From the NCBI GenBank assembly GCA_035505375.1, contig DATJQV010000085.1:1-32701 (forward strand): a DNA stretch of 32,701 nt, in the 5' to 3' direction. The notes beneath the pieces were generated by a model, which saw only the letters and a program-made list of their open reading frames with translations, did no database searches and was not told the DNA's origin. Every line of letters starts with the position of its first letter. The stretch's first letter is position 1. Of this stretch, positions 1,636 through 29,673 are shown piece by piece. A program made the position numbers and the translations under genes. The stretch comes from a bacterium (GTDB lineage Bacteria; Hydrothermota; Tepidihabitantia; Tepidihabitantales; Tepidihabitantaceae).

Positions 1636-1803
1636 CCCTTCTCAACCTCAACCTGTCCTGCTACCTTGGTCTCAACCTCTCGCTCCGCTCCTCTCTTGGT
1701 CTCAACCCTGGCCTCAGCCTTAACCTCTTTTCTTTCAACCTCAGCCTCAGCCTGTTCTGTTCTCTCACCCTCAACCTCGGCCTGGATGACCCCGGCTGCG
1801 ATA
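1636..1803 (+). repeat. Degenerate hexamer tract (CTCAAC/CTCAGC units), C-rich on the plus strand
   Basis: Six-base units such as ctcaac, ctcagc and cttaac recur with interruptions. The 16-base word cctcagccttaacctc lies at 1712-1727 and recurs at 2242-2257. With one mismatch it appears on the minus strand inside the aminotransferase gene at 29093-29108. Reading frames stay open through the tract only because the period is a multiple of three, giving Leu-Asn/Leu-Ser or Ser-Thr-rich strings that look non-functional. Confidence 0.8.
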
Positions 1804-2115: not shown

Positions 2116-2137
2116 GTGGGGGTGTCATTTCCCAGCC

Positions 2138-2322
2138 TCAAGCCTAACGCCTCACGCCTCAAGCAGTTAGGCCGGAAAGACGGTTCGGACCAATGATACC
2201 AATCTGTCTCATTGCGGTTGGCCGCCGCATCTCAGGCCTAGCCTCAGCCTTAACCTCCCTCCTGCCCGTGACCTCAACCTTGACCTTCTCTTTCTCAACC
2301 CTGACCTTAACCTCAACCTACG
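2138..2322 (+). repeat. Second C-rich hexamer tract leading to the ATPase gene
   Basis: After a short stretch with cctcaagcctaacgcctcac (from about 2138) the CTCAAC/CTTAAC units resume from 2231 and run directly into the ATG at 2323. The word cctcagccttaacctc is repeated here at 2242-2257. Because the leader just before 2323 is repeat, the ATPase gene has no recognisable Shine-Dalgarno sequence. Confidence 0.7.
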
Positions 2323-3681
2323 ATGTCTGACACTGTCATCTCGGTCGAGCGCCTTTCCAAGGTCTATCGCCTCGGCCAAGTCGGCACCGGGACGCTGACC
2401 AACGACCTGAAGGTCTGGTGGGCGAAGGCACGAGGCAAGCCCAATCCGTTGCTGAGGATTGGCCAGACAGACCACGGCAACCGCGATGGCGAGACAATTT
2501 GGGCGCTCAAGGACGTGAACTTCGAGGTCAAGCAGGGCGAAGTCCTGGGCATCATTGGCCGCAACGGCGCTGGGAAAAGCACCCTGCTCAAGATACTCTC
2601 TCAGGTCACCGCTCCCACGCAGGGATGCGCCAGGGTCAAGGGCCGGGTGGCGAGCCTTTTGGAGGTGGGTACCGGCTTTCATCCTGAGCTGACCGGAAGG
2701 GAGAACACCTATCTGAATGGGGCCATCCTTGGGATGACGAAGGCCGAAACCGGCCGCAAACTCGACGAAATCGTCGCCTTCGCCGAGACCGAGAAGTTCA
2801 TGGATACGCCGGTCAAGCGCTACTCTAGCGGCATGCTTGTGCGCCTGGCCTTTGCCGTCGCAGCCCATCTCGAACCGGAGGTCCTGCTCGTGGATGAGGT
2901 GCTCGCCGTTGGAGACGCAGCGTTTCAAAAGAAGTGCCTGGGGAAGATGGGCGATGTGGCCAAAGGTGGCCGGACGGTCTTGTTCGTGAGCCACAACATG
3001 GTGGCGGTACAGAGCCTTTGCGGGGACGCGGTGTGGTTGGATCGTGGTTCGATCACTCGGAGGGGCAGATGCAGTCAAGTTGTCGCGGAATACCTGCAGT
3101 CCTCCGCCGGGTCGGGTTCATCCGAGCAGATCTGGGATGACCCTGCGACCGCGCCAGGCAACGAGGCTGTTCGACTGCGGCGAGTCGGCGTGTGCCTGGA
3201 GCGAGACCTGGCATCGGGCCTCATCACGATGGCGAGCCCGTTTCGAATAGAAGTGGACTGGTGGAACCGCGTGAAAGATGCGCGGCTGACCGTCGCGTTG
3301 CACGTCATCGATGAACAGGGGGCTACGGCCTTCACGACGGGCAGTTCACTTGACCCACAGTGGCGCGACCGGCCGCTGTCGGTCGGCCTTTATCGGAGCA
3401 CGGGGTACTTCCCCGGCAATCTGTTCAACAGCGGCAGGTATCGCGTCTTGCTTCTGGTCGTCAGAAACCTCAGCACCATCATCTATCGTCACGACGACGC
3501 CCTCTCCTTCGACGTCGTCGATCTGACCGAGAGAACGGAAGGGTGGCTTGGCCGGGAGCCGGGTGTGCTCCAACCTCTGTTGAGGTGGACAACGGAATAC
3601 GTGGCCGAGGAGTCCCCTTCGGCCGACGCCGTCGACGCCCTAGGAGTCGACAGAGAGATACCATGCCCTCAGCCGAAGTGA
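2323..3681 (+). CDS. wzt: Polysaccharide export ABC transporter ATPase with C-terminal Wzt-like domain
   Basis: Cytoplasmic ATPase partner of the permease at 238. In the 452-residue product Walker A is GRNGAGKST at 79-87, the signature YSSGM at 167-171, Walker B VLLVDE at 187-192, and the switch histidine in FVSHN at about 224. Residues about 265-430 form a beta-rich extension resembling the Wzt C-terminal domain, which in O-antigen systems recognises the modified non-reducing end of the chain before export. A transporter of this type is therefore likely selective for a capped or decorated glycan, which fits the many modifying enzymes downstream. The start at 2323 gives the usual SVERLSKVYRLG opening. 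No ribosome-binding site is evident because the leader is repeat DNA. Confidence 0.93.
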   Translation: MSDTVISVERLSKVYRLGQVGTGTLTNDLKVWWAKARGKPNPLLRIGQTDHGNRDGETIWALKDVNFEVKQGEVLGIIGRNGAGKSTLLKILSQVTAPTQGCARVKGRVASLLEVGTGFHPELTGRENTYLNGAILGMTKAETGRKLDEIVAFAETEKFMDTPVKRYSSGMLVRLAFAVAAHLEPEVLLVDEVLAVGDAAFQKKCLGKMGDVAKGGRTVLFVSHNMVAVQSLCGDAVWLDRGSITRRGRCSQVVAEYLQSSAGSGSSEQIWDDPATAPGNEAVRLRRVGVCLERDLASGLITMASPFRIEVDWWNRVKDARLTVALHVIDEQGATAFTTGSSLDPQWRDRPLSVGLYRSTGYFPGNLFNSGRYRVLLLVVRNLSTIIYRHDDALSFDVVDLTERTEGWLGREPGVLQPLLRWTTEYVAEESPSADAVDALGVDREIPCPQPK

Positions 3682-23030: not shown

Positions 23031-23873
23031 ATGAAGGTCATAGTATCCCACGACGTGGATCATCTGTCTCCTCGGGAGCACGTCAGGGACCTGGTCGTAC
23101 CGAAGTTCGTGGTCCGATTCGGTTTGGAGTGGTTACTGGGTCGCACCAGGTGGAGCGAAGTCACGCTGGCTATTCAATCCCTGTGGCGCGGGTCTTGGCA
23201 ACACCTCAAGGAGCTTATGGACTTTGACGAAACACACGGTGTGCCCTCGACCTTCTTTGTGGGTGTGGCGAACGGCCGTAAGTTGTGCTACTCGCTTGCG
23301 GATGCCAGCTACTGGATTGCGTGCATCAGAAGACGAGGATTTGACGTAGGGGTTCACGGCATTGAGTACAGGTCGGCAGAGAGTGCCCGAAGAGAGTTGG
23401 AGCTGTTCAGGAAGATCGCCGGTCAGGGCACTGTCGGGGTCAGAATGCACAACATCGGCTACTCTCCATCGTCTGTCTTGCTCTCCGGCGCCGATGTCGC
23501 GACCCTCAGGGATGTTGGGTACTCGTACAGCTCGACGACCTTCTCCGAAACCGGCCCTTGTTCGCTTGGTGCTTTCTGGGAATTCCCGATTCACCTCATG
23601 GACGGCCACGTATTTCAGGTTGGTAGACCTTGGAAGACCAGGACTCTGGCGCAGGCTAAGCGGTTTACAGTTGAATACCTTGCGGACGCCGCGGTCAGAG
23701 GCGTCAGTCACTTCTCAATGCTCTTTCACGATGTCTACTTCGCTGACTACTATCGGGACTACCAGGAATGGTACATGTGGCTCATTGAGCACCTGAGGAC
23801 AGAGGGATATACGTTATGCAGCTACCGAGATGCACTGATGGAGTTGGACGCCAACGCCAGGAAACCTTGCTAG
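23031..23873 (+). CDS. Polysaccharide deacetylase-like (NodB-homology) protein
   Basis: The ATG abuts the preceding stop. The 280-residue product begins with the NodB-type first motif, VSHDVDHL (Asp8 and Asp10), and continues with PSTFFVGV and a second motif that reads GVHGIEYRS (His109). The usual second histidine of the H-S/T-x3-H zinc site is not present in that position. The R-P-P/Y region is replaced by GVRMHNIGYS, and the last motif appears as MLFHDVYF (His233). The metal site is therefore altered compared with standard deacetylases, although His109, His140 and His233 could still bind a metal. There is no signal peptide, so it would act in the cytoplasm on an N-acetylated precursor. Confidence 0.82.
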   Translation: MKVIVSHDVDHLSPREHVRDLVVPKFVVRFGLEWLLGRTRWSEVTLAIQSLWRGSWQHLKELMDFDETHGVPSTFFVGVANGRKLCYSLADASYWIACIRRRGFDVGVHGIEYRSAESARRELELFRKIAGQGTVGVRMHNIGYSPSSVLLSGADVATLRDVGYSYSSTTFSETGPCSLGAFWEFPIHLMDGHVFQVGRPWKTRTLAQAKRFTVEYLADAAVRGVSHFSMLFHDVYFADYYRDYQEWYMWLIEHLRTEGYTLCSYRDALMELDANARKPC

Positions 23874-24994
23874 CCCTCGATCCGAAGGGCGACGCGTGCC
23901 GACTAAGTCTGCTCGTCGCGATGAGGAACGAATCCGGCACCATCAAGGCGTGCTTGAAGTCACTGGTTGTCCAGGACTCGGCCAAGTCCGAGTTCGAGGT
24001 GCTGGTCTTTGATGGCGAGTCCACGGACGATTCGTGGTGCATCGCCGAAGGAGTGCTCGCAGGACATGGCAATTGCCGAGTGCTGCGCAACCCGGAAAGG
24101 ACTCAGTCCGCCGCATGGAATCGCGGGATCCGAGAGTCGCACGGGGAGATGATAGGGATTATCAGCGGGCACACTACGCTGGCGCATGACTATGTGAGAA
24201 GAGTGGTTGAGACGTTTGAGCGCACGGGCGCTGACATGGTCGGCGGCCCGGCCATTGCGAGCGCATCTGGGCTCGCGGCCGAGAGCATCGCCGCCGCGAT
24301 GACGAGTCGCTTCGGTGTCGGAGACGCCACGTTCCGCTACGCCACCAAGGAGCAGTATGTGGATACCGTGTTTCAGGGCGTGTGCAGGCGCAAGGTCTTT
24401 GAGAGGATCGGCGGATTCGACGAGGAGCTGGTGCGTGACCAGGACGACGAGTTCAGCTACCGGCTGCTGGAGCACGGCGGGAAGATACTCTGCAATCCGG
24501 AGATCCGCTGCACGTACTTCTCGAGGAGTTCGCTGGGAGGGCTCTGGAAGCAGTACAATCAGTATGGATTCTACAAAGTGCGGGTGCTGCAGAAGCACCC
24601 GAAGCAGATGCGGCCGCGGCAGTTCGTGCCGCCACTGTTCGTTCTCAGCCTAATCACAGTTCTTGGTTTGTGGTTTTTGGTTTCTTGGGGATGGGCTGCG
24701 TTCGCCCTAGTCAGCGGCAGTTATGTGCTGGCGAATCTCGTCGCGTCGGTCCTGACCGCATCGAAGAAGGGCTGGAAGCACCTGCCGCTGCTGCCGGTCG
24801 TCTATGCCATTCTGCATCTGAGCTATGGTCTTGGTTTCCTGCTCGGGCTCTACCGGTTCTGGAACCGCTGGGGAGACAAGGTCGGGAAGGTACCATCGTT
24901 CGCAAAGCGTCACTTGGACAATTCAGAAGTCAGAAACCAGAGATCAGAATGCAGAGATTTCGACGGCCGGAGACCAGAGACAAGAAACCTGTAA
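23816..24994 (+). CDS. Glycosyltransferase family 2 with C-terminal membrane segments (ExoA-like)
   Basis: The 392-residue product has a GT-A domain (RLSLLVAMRNESGTIKACLKSL at about 29-50, FDGESTDDS at 65-73, RDQDDEFSYRLLEHGG at 207-222) followed by two or three hydrophobic segments (about 272-312 and 325-345), as in succinoglycan-type ExoA enzymes. It overlaps the deacetylase gene by 58 bases. ATG 23816 has an AGAGGGA ribosome-binding site, while TTG 23867 would remove a non-family N-terminus. Two parts are built of period-7 repeat DNA: the first membrane segment (24664-24690) and the terminal 25 residues (24923-24991). Those tail residues are polar and probably acquired. Confidence 0.9.
   Translation: MQLPRCTDGVGRQRQETLLALDPKGDACRLSLLVAMRNESGTIKACLKSLVVQDSAKSEFEVLVFDGESTDDSWCIAEGVLAGHGNCRVLRNPERTQSAAWNRGIRESHGEMIGIISGHTTLAHDYVRRVVETFERTGADMVGGPAIASASGLAAESIAAAMTSRFGVGDATFRYATKEQYVDTVFQGVCRRKVFERIGGFDEELVRDQDDEFSYRLLEHGGKILCNPEIRCTYFSRSSLGGLWKQYNQYGFYKVRVLQKHPKQMRPRQFVPPLFVLSLITVLGLWFLVSWGWAAFALVSGSYVLANLVASVLTASKKGWKHLPLLPVVYAILHLSYGLGFLLGLYRFWNRWGDKVGKVPSFAKRHLDNSEVRNQRSECRDFDGRRPETRNL
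24664..24690 (+). repeat. Period-7 repeat within a membrane-segment codon tract
   Basis: Three successive seven-base units tggtttg, tggtttt, tggtttc and a partial fourth. Their reverse complement (gaaacca) resembles the heptamers at 24923. The reading frame stays open and encodes a Leu/Trp/Phe-rich stretch in the first hydrophobic segment of the glycosyltransferase at 23816. Confidence 0.6.
24923..24991 (+). repeat. Degenerate heptamer tract (tcagaag-type units)
   Basis: Five contiguous seven-base units occupy 24923-24957: tcagaag, tcagaaa, ccagaga, tcagaat, gcagaga. A looser second stretch (ggagaccagagacaagaaac) ends near 24989. The tract encodes the last residues of the glycosyltransferase at 23816 and leads into the convergent intergenic region. 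Confidence 0.75.
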
Positions 24995-28404: not shown

Positions 28405-29673
28405 CTATCCCGCCATCGCCGCACGCGGCCCACTTCTCGCAGCCAAGCAGGCCCGCCTGACAATCTCGCAGATACGCATGAGGTCCTTCTCGGTCAGCGC
28501 CGACCCGCTCGGCAGACAGACCCCGTTCTCAAACAGACGCGCCGCCACGCCTCCGCCCCGGACTCGGCATCCCTTGAACACCGGCTGCAGGTGCATCGGC
28601 TTCCAGAGCGGCCGCGCCTCAATGTTCTCTGCCTCCAGCGCCTGCATGAGACCGCGGACCAGAGACCCTGGGCCGGTCTCGCCTGTCTCCTGTCTCCCGC
28701 CTCGCGTCTCCCGCCCTTCCAGCGTCAGGCAGGTGAGCCATCGCGTGCCTCTTCCGTACTGAGCCTCGGGCATGAACTCGATGCCTGGCAGGTCGCCCAG
28801 AGAGCGCTGGTAGAACTCGAAGTTCCGCCTGCGGGCGGTGACGCGCTCGGACAGAACCGGAAGCTGTCCTCTTCCGATCGCGGCCAAGACGTTGCTCATC
28901 CGGTAGTTGAAACCAATCTCGGAGTGCTGATAGTGTAGCGCCTTGTCCCGGGCCTGCGTGGCTAGGAACCGCGCCTCATCGGTGATTGCCTGGTCGTGGG
29001 ACGCCAACATTCCACCGCCGCCCGTGGTAATGACCTTGTTTCCGTTGAACGAGAACGCCGACACCTTGCCGAAGCTGCCGGCGGAGCGGGCGGAGGTTAA
29101 GGCCGAGGTCGAGGTCGACGCCGGCGACTCTGACTGGCGGCTCCCGGTATTGTCCCCATGGCCCCAGTACACAGCTCCCAAGGCCTCAGCCGCATCCTCA
29201 ACCACCGGCACATCGTACTCCGAGCACGCGGCCAGTATCTGGTCGTAATCTGCACACTGGCCGTACAGGTCGACCACAACCACCGCTCGAGGCAGTTTGC
29301 CCCGCTTCGCGCAGGCGGCAAGCTCCTCGCGCAGAAGCCCAGGGTCCATGTTCCAACTGCTGTTGTCAGAGTCAATGAACACAGGGACACCGCCTTCGTA
29401 GGTTATCACGTTGGCACTGGCCGCAAAAGTCAGCGTCGGACAGATTACTTCCTCGCCATACCGCAATCCAAGGATGCGAAGCGCAAGATGCAGCGCCGCG
29501 GTACCGGAGGAAAGTGCCACAGCGTGGGGAATCCCCACTATCTGTGTGAACTCACGCTCAAAGGCATCCAAGTGCGGCCCCGCTGGCGCTAGCCAATTCG
29601 TGTCAAATGCATCTTGGATCAACTCCAGTTCCCGTCCTGACATGTGCGGCGGAGACAGGAGGATTCGCTTCAT
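28405..29673 (-). CDS. DegT/DnrJ/EryC1/StrS aminotransferase with low-complexity insertions
   Basis: PLP sugar aminotransferase of 422 residues, most similar in pattern to UDP-bacillosamine/PglE-like enzymes. It has PTLTFAASANVITYEGG, VVEDAAEALGA (Asp160), FSFNGNKVITTGGGG (Schiff-base Lys213), and a late ENIEARPLWKPMHLQPVF and FENGVCLPSGS. About 26 residues at 171-197 (Ser/Thr/Gln-rich) have no counterpart in the family, and their DNA (29083-29160) contains the hexamer-repeat word seen at 1712 and 2242. A second odd segment at 319-337 (Gly/Arg/Glu/Thr-rich) is encoded by period-7 DNA (28675-28715). The insertions fall in surface loops before the lysine motif and in the C-terminal domain, so activity may be kept. 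Confidence 0.9.
   Translation of the reverse strand: MKRILLSPPHMSGRELELIQDAFDTNWLAPAGPHLDAFEREFTQIVGIPHAVALSSGTAALHLALRILGLRYGEEVICPTLTFAASANVITYEGGVPVFIDSDNSSWNMDPGLLREELAACAKRGKLPRAVVVVDLYGQCADYDQILAACSEYDVPVVEDAAEALGAVYWGHGDNTGSRQSESPASTSTSALTSARSAGSFGKVSAFSFNGNKVITTGGGGMLASHDQAITDEARFLATQARDKALHYQHSEIGFNYRMSNVLAAIGRGQLPVLSERVTARRRNFEFYQRSLGDLPGIEFMPEAQYGRGTRWLTCLTLEGRETRGGRQETGETGPGSLVRGLMQALEAENIEARPLWKPMHLQPVFKGCRVRGGGVAARLFENGVCLPSGSALTEKDLMRICEIVRRACLAARSGPRAAMAG
28675..28715 (-). repeat. Period-7 tract inside the aminotransferase gene
   Basis: On the coding (minus) strand the units ggagacg, cgaggcg, ggagaca, ggagaca, ggcgaga follow each other without gaps. Three units equal seven codons, so the reading frame rotates through the tract, giving Arg-Glu-Thr / Gly-Arg-Gln-Glu-Thr strings. 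The sequence resembles the ggagaccagagacaag stretch at 24969. Confidence 0.65.
29083..29160 (-). repeat. Hexamer-repeat insertion inside the aminotransferase gene
   Basis: The minus strand reads cgacctcgacctcggccttaacctc-like units. The 16-base word at 29093-29108 equals the word at 1712-1727 and 2242-2257 except for one A-to-G change. The insertion is in frame and accounts for the non-family residues at 171-197 of the aminotransferase. Confidence 0.65.

Follow-up and report, generated by a model that had tools for sequence, protein, structure and literature searches.

The stretch of DNA analysed here (the window, 32,701 nt) comes from the genome referred to below as G000, of a genus of uncultured bacteria placed in candidate division WOR-3 (now Caldifarciminota). 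It carries a sugar aminotransferase gene with two in-frame inserts, and short tandem repeats within and between several other genes, as follows:

28405–29673, minus strand: DegT/DnrJ/EryC1/StrS sugar aminotransferase (PglE-like), 422 aa, with two in-frame inserts (PF01041, PglE relatives, AlphaFold).
29086–29157, minus strand: first in-frame insert, loop S3, net +24 aa, residues ~173–196 (alignment; pLDDT).
29094–29114, minus strand: hexamer run CCTCGACCTCGGCCTTAACCT within the first insert, a stretch identical to the intergenic word (word search).
~28666–28719, minus strand: second in-frame insert, loop S4, net +13 aa, residues ~319–336, EGRETRGGRQETGETGPG (alignment; pLDDT).
28679–28713, minus strand: heptamer array within the second insert, unit of the ACGGGAG class, TRF consensus CCTGTCT (TRF).
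1640–1784, plus strand: hexamer-repeat region 3′ of a 23S-IVP four-helix-bundle gene, with words at 1712–1727, 1739–1753 and 1769–1783.
2134–2164, plus strand: intergenic heptamer array GCCTCAA / GCCTCAC.
2230–2320, plus strand: hexamer-repeat region directly 5′ of an ABC-transporter ATPase gene (2323–3681), with words at 2242–2257, 2272–2286 and 2305–2319.
24930–24958, plus strand: array of degenerate heptamers (CAGAAAC / CAGAGAT) that encodes the C-terminal tail of a GT2 glycosyltransferase (23816–24994; TRF, GT2 domain).

Judged from its sequence, the aminotransferase is a normal member of the DegT family, with the fold and motifs of PglE and GDP-perosamine synthase, both of which lack the two inserts. 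The profile search matches PF01041 over the whole length of the protein (E 1.1e-85), the nearest solved structures are those of PglE (1o61 / 4ztc), to which the AlphaFold model aligns with a TM-score of 0.92 by target length, and K213 lies in the invariant FNGNK block, which places the protein within DegT/DnrJ/EryC1/StrS. Compared with PglE, a relative from the same family (G010) and 15 homologues from other phyla, it has two extra stretches, of +24 and +13 aa. The first is flanked by the conserved motifs GAVY and AGSFG, just N-terminal to the invariant NGNK motif and upstream of Lys213; the two flanking motifs are 28 residues apart in the window protein and 4 in the insert-free G010 protein, and the net gain is thus 24 aa. 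A preliminary description of this DNA had proposed that residues 171–197 are a repeat-encoded block foreign to the family just before the active-site lysine motif, and alignment with homologues bears this out, no counterpart being found in PglE (1o61, 4ztc), perosamine synthases or the 15 homologues of other phyla. The boundaries are closer to ~173–196, and clean hexamers make up just the 3′ half or so of the insert (29094–29114). The second insert, absent from that description, arises from a heptamer array. The AlphaFold model, built on an alignment of 34 sequences, is otherwise confident (mean pLDDT 87.6), and the only internal segments below a pLDDT of 50 are residues 175–192 and 322–333; both inserts are thereby predicted to be disordered.

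The word CCTCRGCCTTAACCTC has three matches in the window at 0 mismatches, at 1712–1727(+), 2242–2257(+) and 29093–29108(−), where 0.06 are expected by chance, and none of the shuffled windows reached three. The first two are non-coding and lie within hexamer-repeat regions, as had been reported; the coding copy had been taken to differ at one base, but it is exact, since the A/G position is already the R of CCTCRGCCTTAACCTC. Allowing one mismatch at most, a search of the 3.6 Mb of its own genome finds the word at 15 sites and the reversed control at 1, the opposite of a word that is no commoner than composition predicts, and the word does turn up in other coding genes: further copies sit in long open reading frames (ORFs), for example L002 (896 aa) and L014 (731 aa), the rest being in short ORFs or none. 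L002 (G000:C56) is a membrane protein in which two hexamer arrays form an inverted pair, the word (1501–1516) making up one of the arms; the pair is read in frame, encoding RIRLRSRSR and then LTSALTSTST. A looser hexamer pattern, AACCTYRRCCTYRRCCT, has 25–129 sites per genome in the genus (all six species); G017 has 7 and the other 34 genomes searched 0–3 each, and the control never exceeds 1.

In-frame inserts are also found in the DegT orthologues of G001–G004, G007 and G017, where they occupy as many as four loops in common and consist of different units (GGACGAA, GGAGACG, CAGAATG, CGGTCAT, AAGGCT and CAACCT); alignment reveals none in G010, G025 or 15 homologues from other phyla. G000 has another DegT gene (C81), 75% identical to the window copy (C85), with a heptamer insert at the site where the window copy has a hexamer insert. 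G007, whose closed genome is one contig of 3.26 Mb, has inserts as well, and this speaks against an assembly artefact.

Nor are such inserts confined to DegT. Arrays occur as in-frame inserts in DegT, MutS, NadA, SelA, the tRNA CCA-adding enzyme and ribokinase, in six species of the genus as well as a few relatives from the same family. Measured against solved structures, the insertions that coincide with arrays amount to 14 aa in NadA, 10 aa in SelA, ~79 aa in the ribokinase-type PfkB protein and 16 and 8 aa in the CCA-adding enzyme, and the filling of the NadA and CCA-adding enzyme loops differs from species to species within the genus. MutS is 930–994 aa long in the genus; array-poor relatives with a full-length protein have 846–867 aa, and G007, G008 and G015 fall in the range 900–936 aa. 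Its arrays sit in the same loop regions from species to species and differ in unit, following residues 185, 385, 610, 724 and 819–825 of the G013 protein. GyrA shows no enlargement and AlaRS just a slight one, and insert tolerance thus varies among proteins. A sample of 48 reciprocal pairs yielded 51 inserts in G000 versus 17 in G013, and no G000 insert could be scored clearly as a tandem array; small indels separating the two genera are therefore for the most part unrelated to arrays or too decayed to be recognised, and the survey gives no per-protein rate of array-derived inserts. We note also that six ORFs of the own genome (L135–L154; C81, C83) encode related C-terminal domains resembling secretion tails, with different 6/7-base arrays at three equivalent positions.

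The MutS core is under strong purifying selection, with dN/dS of about 0.13 (0.125–0.154 at dS 0.50–0.72 between species pairs). In the insert columns dN is 0.35–0.85 and dS is above the core dS in all four pairs, in one only slightly, values that are only indicative because insert alignments between species are uncertain; the sequences thus compared point to insert content in MutS changing faster than the surrounding gene.

Arrays of period 7 number 20.6 per 100 kb in G000 (from 432 kb of sampled DNA), 3.4 in G007, 0.25 in the family relative G013 and 1.5 in other phyla (a figure taken from loci); those of period 6 are much rarer at equal threshold, and Markov-shuffled versions of C81, C83 and C85 have no period-7 arrays at thresholds of 15 or above. 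The arrays are near-restricted to the WOR-3 genus and some family relatives. An internal period-7 array is present in 30/248 ORFs of at least 200 aa in G000 (12.1%), 5/215 in G007 (2.3%) and 0/495 in G013 (0%), and as ORFs were called mechanically some of those counted will be spurious; the verified inserts rest on homology and not on these calls. About 60% of the period-7 arrays lie within predicted ORFs, which span ~87% of the DNA, and arrays are therefore depleted in ORFs. Period 7 dominates there too, with units that are degenerate and morph along the array. Units are shared between loci, with 60 identical pairs against 5.3 expected (the largest of 300 samples was 16), and CAGAANN and AACCTY units are common to the genus at many places. 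Unit mismatches are concentrated in particular phases (631 versus 529 ± 15), a bias that duplication inheriting unit mutations could explain, and we claim no function for this core-plus-variable structure. Enrichment of 12-mers was set aside as a repeat signal, being dominated by paralogous gene families.

Three known kinds of repeat bear comparison with these arrays. Heptanucleotide STRR-type repeats are found in heterocystous cyanobacteria and, as TAACTGA, in Beggiatoaceae (PMC4679880), and heptamers GGGAATC and GGGGA(C/T)T in Xanthomonas and Nostoc (PMC4692102); 7-base STRR-type repeats lie mainly outside genes, being under-represented in coding sequence or terminating it, and heptamers have been noted as a favoured unit length in many genomes (PMC4679880, PMC4692102). 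The present arrays are similar in being many dispersed 7-base tandem arrays with a species-specific vocabulary, abundant between genes and, at the G000 density of 20.6 per 100 kb, well above chance, but they differ in having dozens of units rather than one or a few, and many are in-frame inserts in conserved enzymes: more than half of the arrays are in predicted ORFs, with inserts verified by homology. Rickettsia palindromic elements are palindromic families of ~150 bp, with a conserved peptide, that lie in frame in unrelated metabolic genes (PMC10969869). Here too repetitive DNA is tolerated in frame in unrelated conserved genes; however, the inserts are 6/7-base arrays without fixed length, ends or peptide, there being no general hairpin excess, no flanks shared beyond neighbouring arrays and paralogous genes and no common insert peptide. 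The tandem repeats of Borgs are perfect, have in-ORF units divisible by three and form disordered protein segments (PMC9879509). Both they and the present arrays evolve fast in intergenic DNA and ORFs while preserving frame and giving disordered segments (in our case for DegT alone, by prediction), whereas the units described here are degenerate, mosaic and mostly of 7 bases, in ORFs as elsewhere, and lie in chromosomal housekeeping enzymes of a bacterium. The arrays thus share one feature with each of the three and fail a defining feature of each. In the open-licence literature searched, we found no description of such in-gene arrays in WOR-3.

We think it probable that degenerate 6/7-base arrays arise or spread genome-wide, and that purifying selection keeps the in-frame, stop-free copies that lie in tolerant loops. 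The DegT insert would be a fragment of one such degenerate array with a unit of 6 or 7 bases, and arrays, as mosaics of several units that are densest between genes, would arise or be copied all over the genomes of the genus. An array landing in a gene would be kept only if the reading frame survives the full length added (7 not being divisible by three, the frame is kept by the total insert and not by each unit), if the mRNA strand is free of stops in the phases used, and if the site is a flexible surface loop; repeated arrivals and losses in a few tolerant loops would leave orthologues and paralogues with different repeats at the same positions. This selection filter of frame, absence of stops and loop tolerance is well supported. 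As to production, we infer slippage in steps that are preferably of 7 bases and more rarely of 6, together with short-homology template switching that would redistribute the units, the inserts being presumably nearly neutral for the most part; slippage plus redistribution is favoured because units recur across loci and no conventional element is seen. Loss of mismatch repair was considered as a cause and rejected, as MutS domain I is present in 30/31 genomes, including all six of the genus; mismatch repair is kept, as far as MutS shows, and the simplest cause of slippage is therefore absent. The preliminary description had envisaged a single hexamer repeat that spreads and is tolerated when its length keeps the frame. 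Its frequency above chance stands, while the single repeat gives way to a repertoire of 6/7-base arrays, mostly of 7; recurrence of unit classes beyond chance fits with spreading, the copying itself being what we would deduce from it; and tolerance in frame holds for this insert without being specific to the gene or the word, since ~12% of the sampled ORFs of at least 200 aa have arrays and the same loops are used in six species.

The likeness between coding and intergenic repeats could instead be compositional, the inserts being ordinary lineage-specific low-complexity loops born by slippage locally in each gene. Low-complexity linkers are common and the array units do morph along their length, but we regard this as doubtful, because units recur across loci at about 10 times expectation, the 15 near-exact sites of CCTCRGCCTTAACCTC against 1 in the control are more than compositional likeness would give, and period 7 is dominant even in coding DNA, where slippage within genes should disfavour it. 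A mobile element of the Rickettsia palindromic type, with the arrays as its decayed arms, is more improbable still. Several inserts do pair a forward array with its own reverse complement, often in DegT loop S4 and also at the hexamer word in L002, the S4 inserts lean towards stable folds (z ~ −0.6 to −3.0), and inverted copies of the same unit lie near 9/89 arrays with at least 12/14 matches, versus 1 at random places. However, there is no general hairpin signal, the mean folding z of 22 DegT inserts being −0.51 against −0.43 for control segments, and we have rejected the hairpin model as a general rule, keeping it as a lead for loop S4 only; flank similarity extends only to neighbouring arrays or paralogous genes, with no shared element ends, and the inserts vary in length, unit and order.

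Equally hard to credit is a loop-diversification system in which dedicated machinery, such as a reverse transcriptase or repair polymerase, writes or swaps the arrays. It would account for the refilling of the same loops with different units, both in orthologues and in the paralogous secretion-tail domains of one genome, and for a unit vocabulary common to the genus, and RVT_1 enzymes are encoded in G000 (C76:3082–3699), G002–G004 and G007. Against it, MutS and NadA are housekeeping proteins and unlikely targets for useful diversification, intergenic DNA is filled by arrays as well, and the profile search gave no RVT_1 match in the array-rich G001 and G005, on which ground a reverse transcriptase was rejected as the common cause. 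We also consider unlikely a process peculiar to the genus that copies in intrinsic steps of 7 bases (and 6) and continually writes and replaces arrays in tolerant surface loops of many conserved enzymes; if real, it would keep supplying the proteome of a bacterium with disordered loop sequence.

Under the preferred reading of genome-wide arrays filtered by selection, conserved enzymes of this lineage, MutS of mismatch repair and the tRNA CCA-adding enzyme among them, receive short repeats from non-coding DNA. Junk-like sequence appears to reshape the surfaces of proteins while leaving the genes unbroken, which offers non-coding DNA a way to become new segments of protein. As the repeat contents change within the same loops between close species, they offer a natural map of insertion-tolerant loops, and the genus provides a test case for why bacterial repeats favour 7-base units. 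There is a warning too: in array-rich genomes, proteins with such inserts may come out split or shortened from gene callers and family models.

Repeats also adjoin gene ends in the window. The gene for the 23S rRNA-intervening-sequence four-helix-bundle protein (PF05635, 1205–1630) directly precedes the first intergenic hexamer region, and its 5′ end has hexamer-like sequence as well (1226–1267). The C-terminal tail of the GT2 glycosyltransferase, SEVRNQRSECRDFDGRRPETRNL, is encoded by degenerate heptamers of the CAGAAAC type, which TRF reports at period 14 with the unit TCAGAAACCAGAGA; this suggests that arrays may extend the ends of genes in addition to filling their loops.
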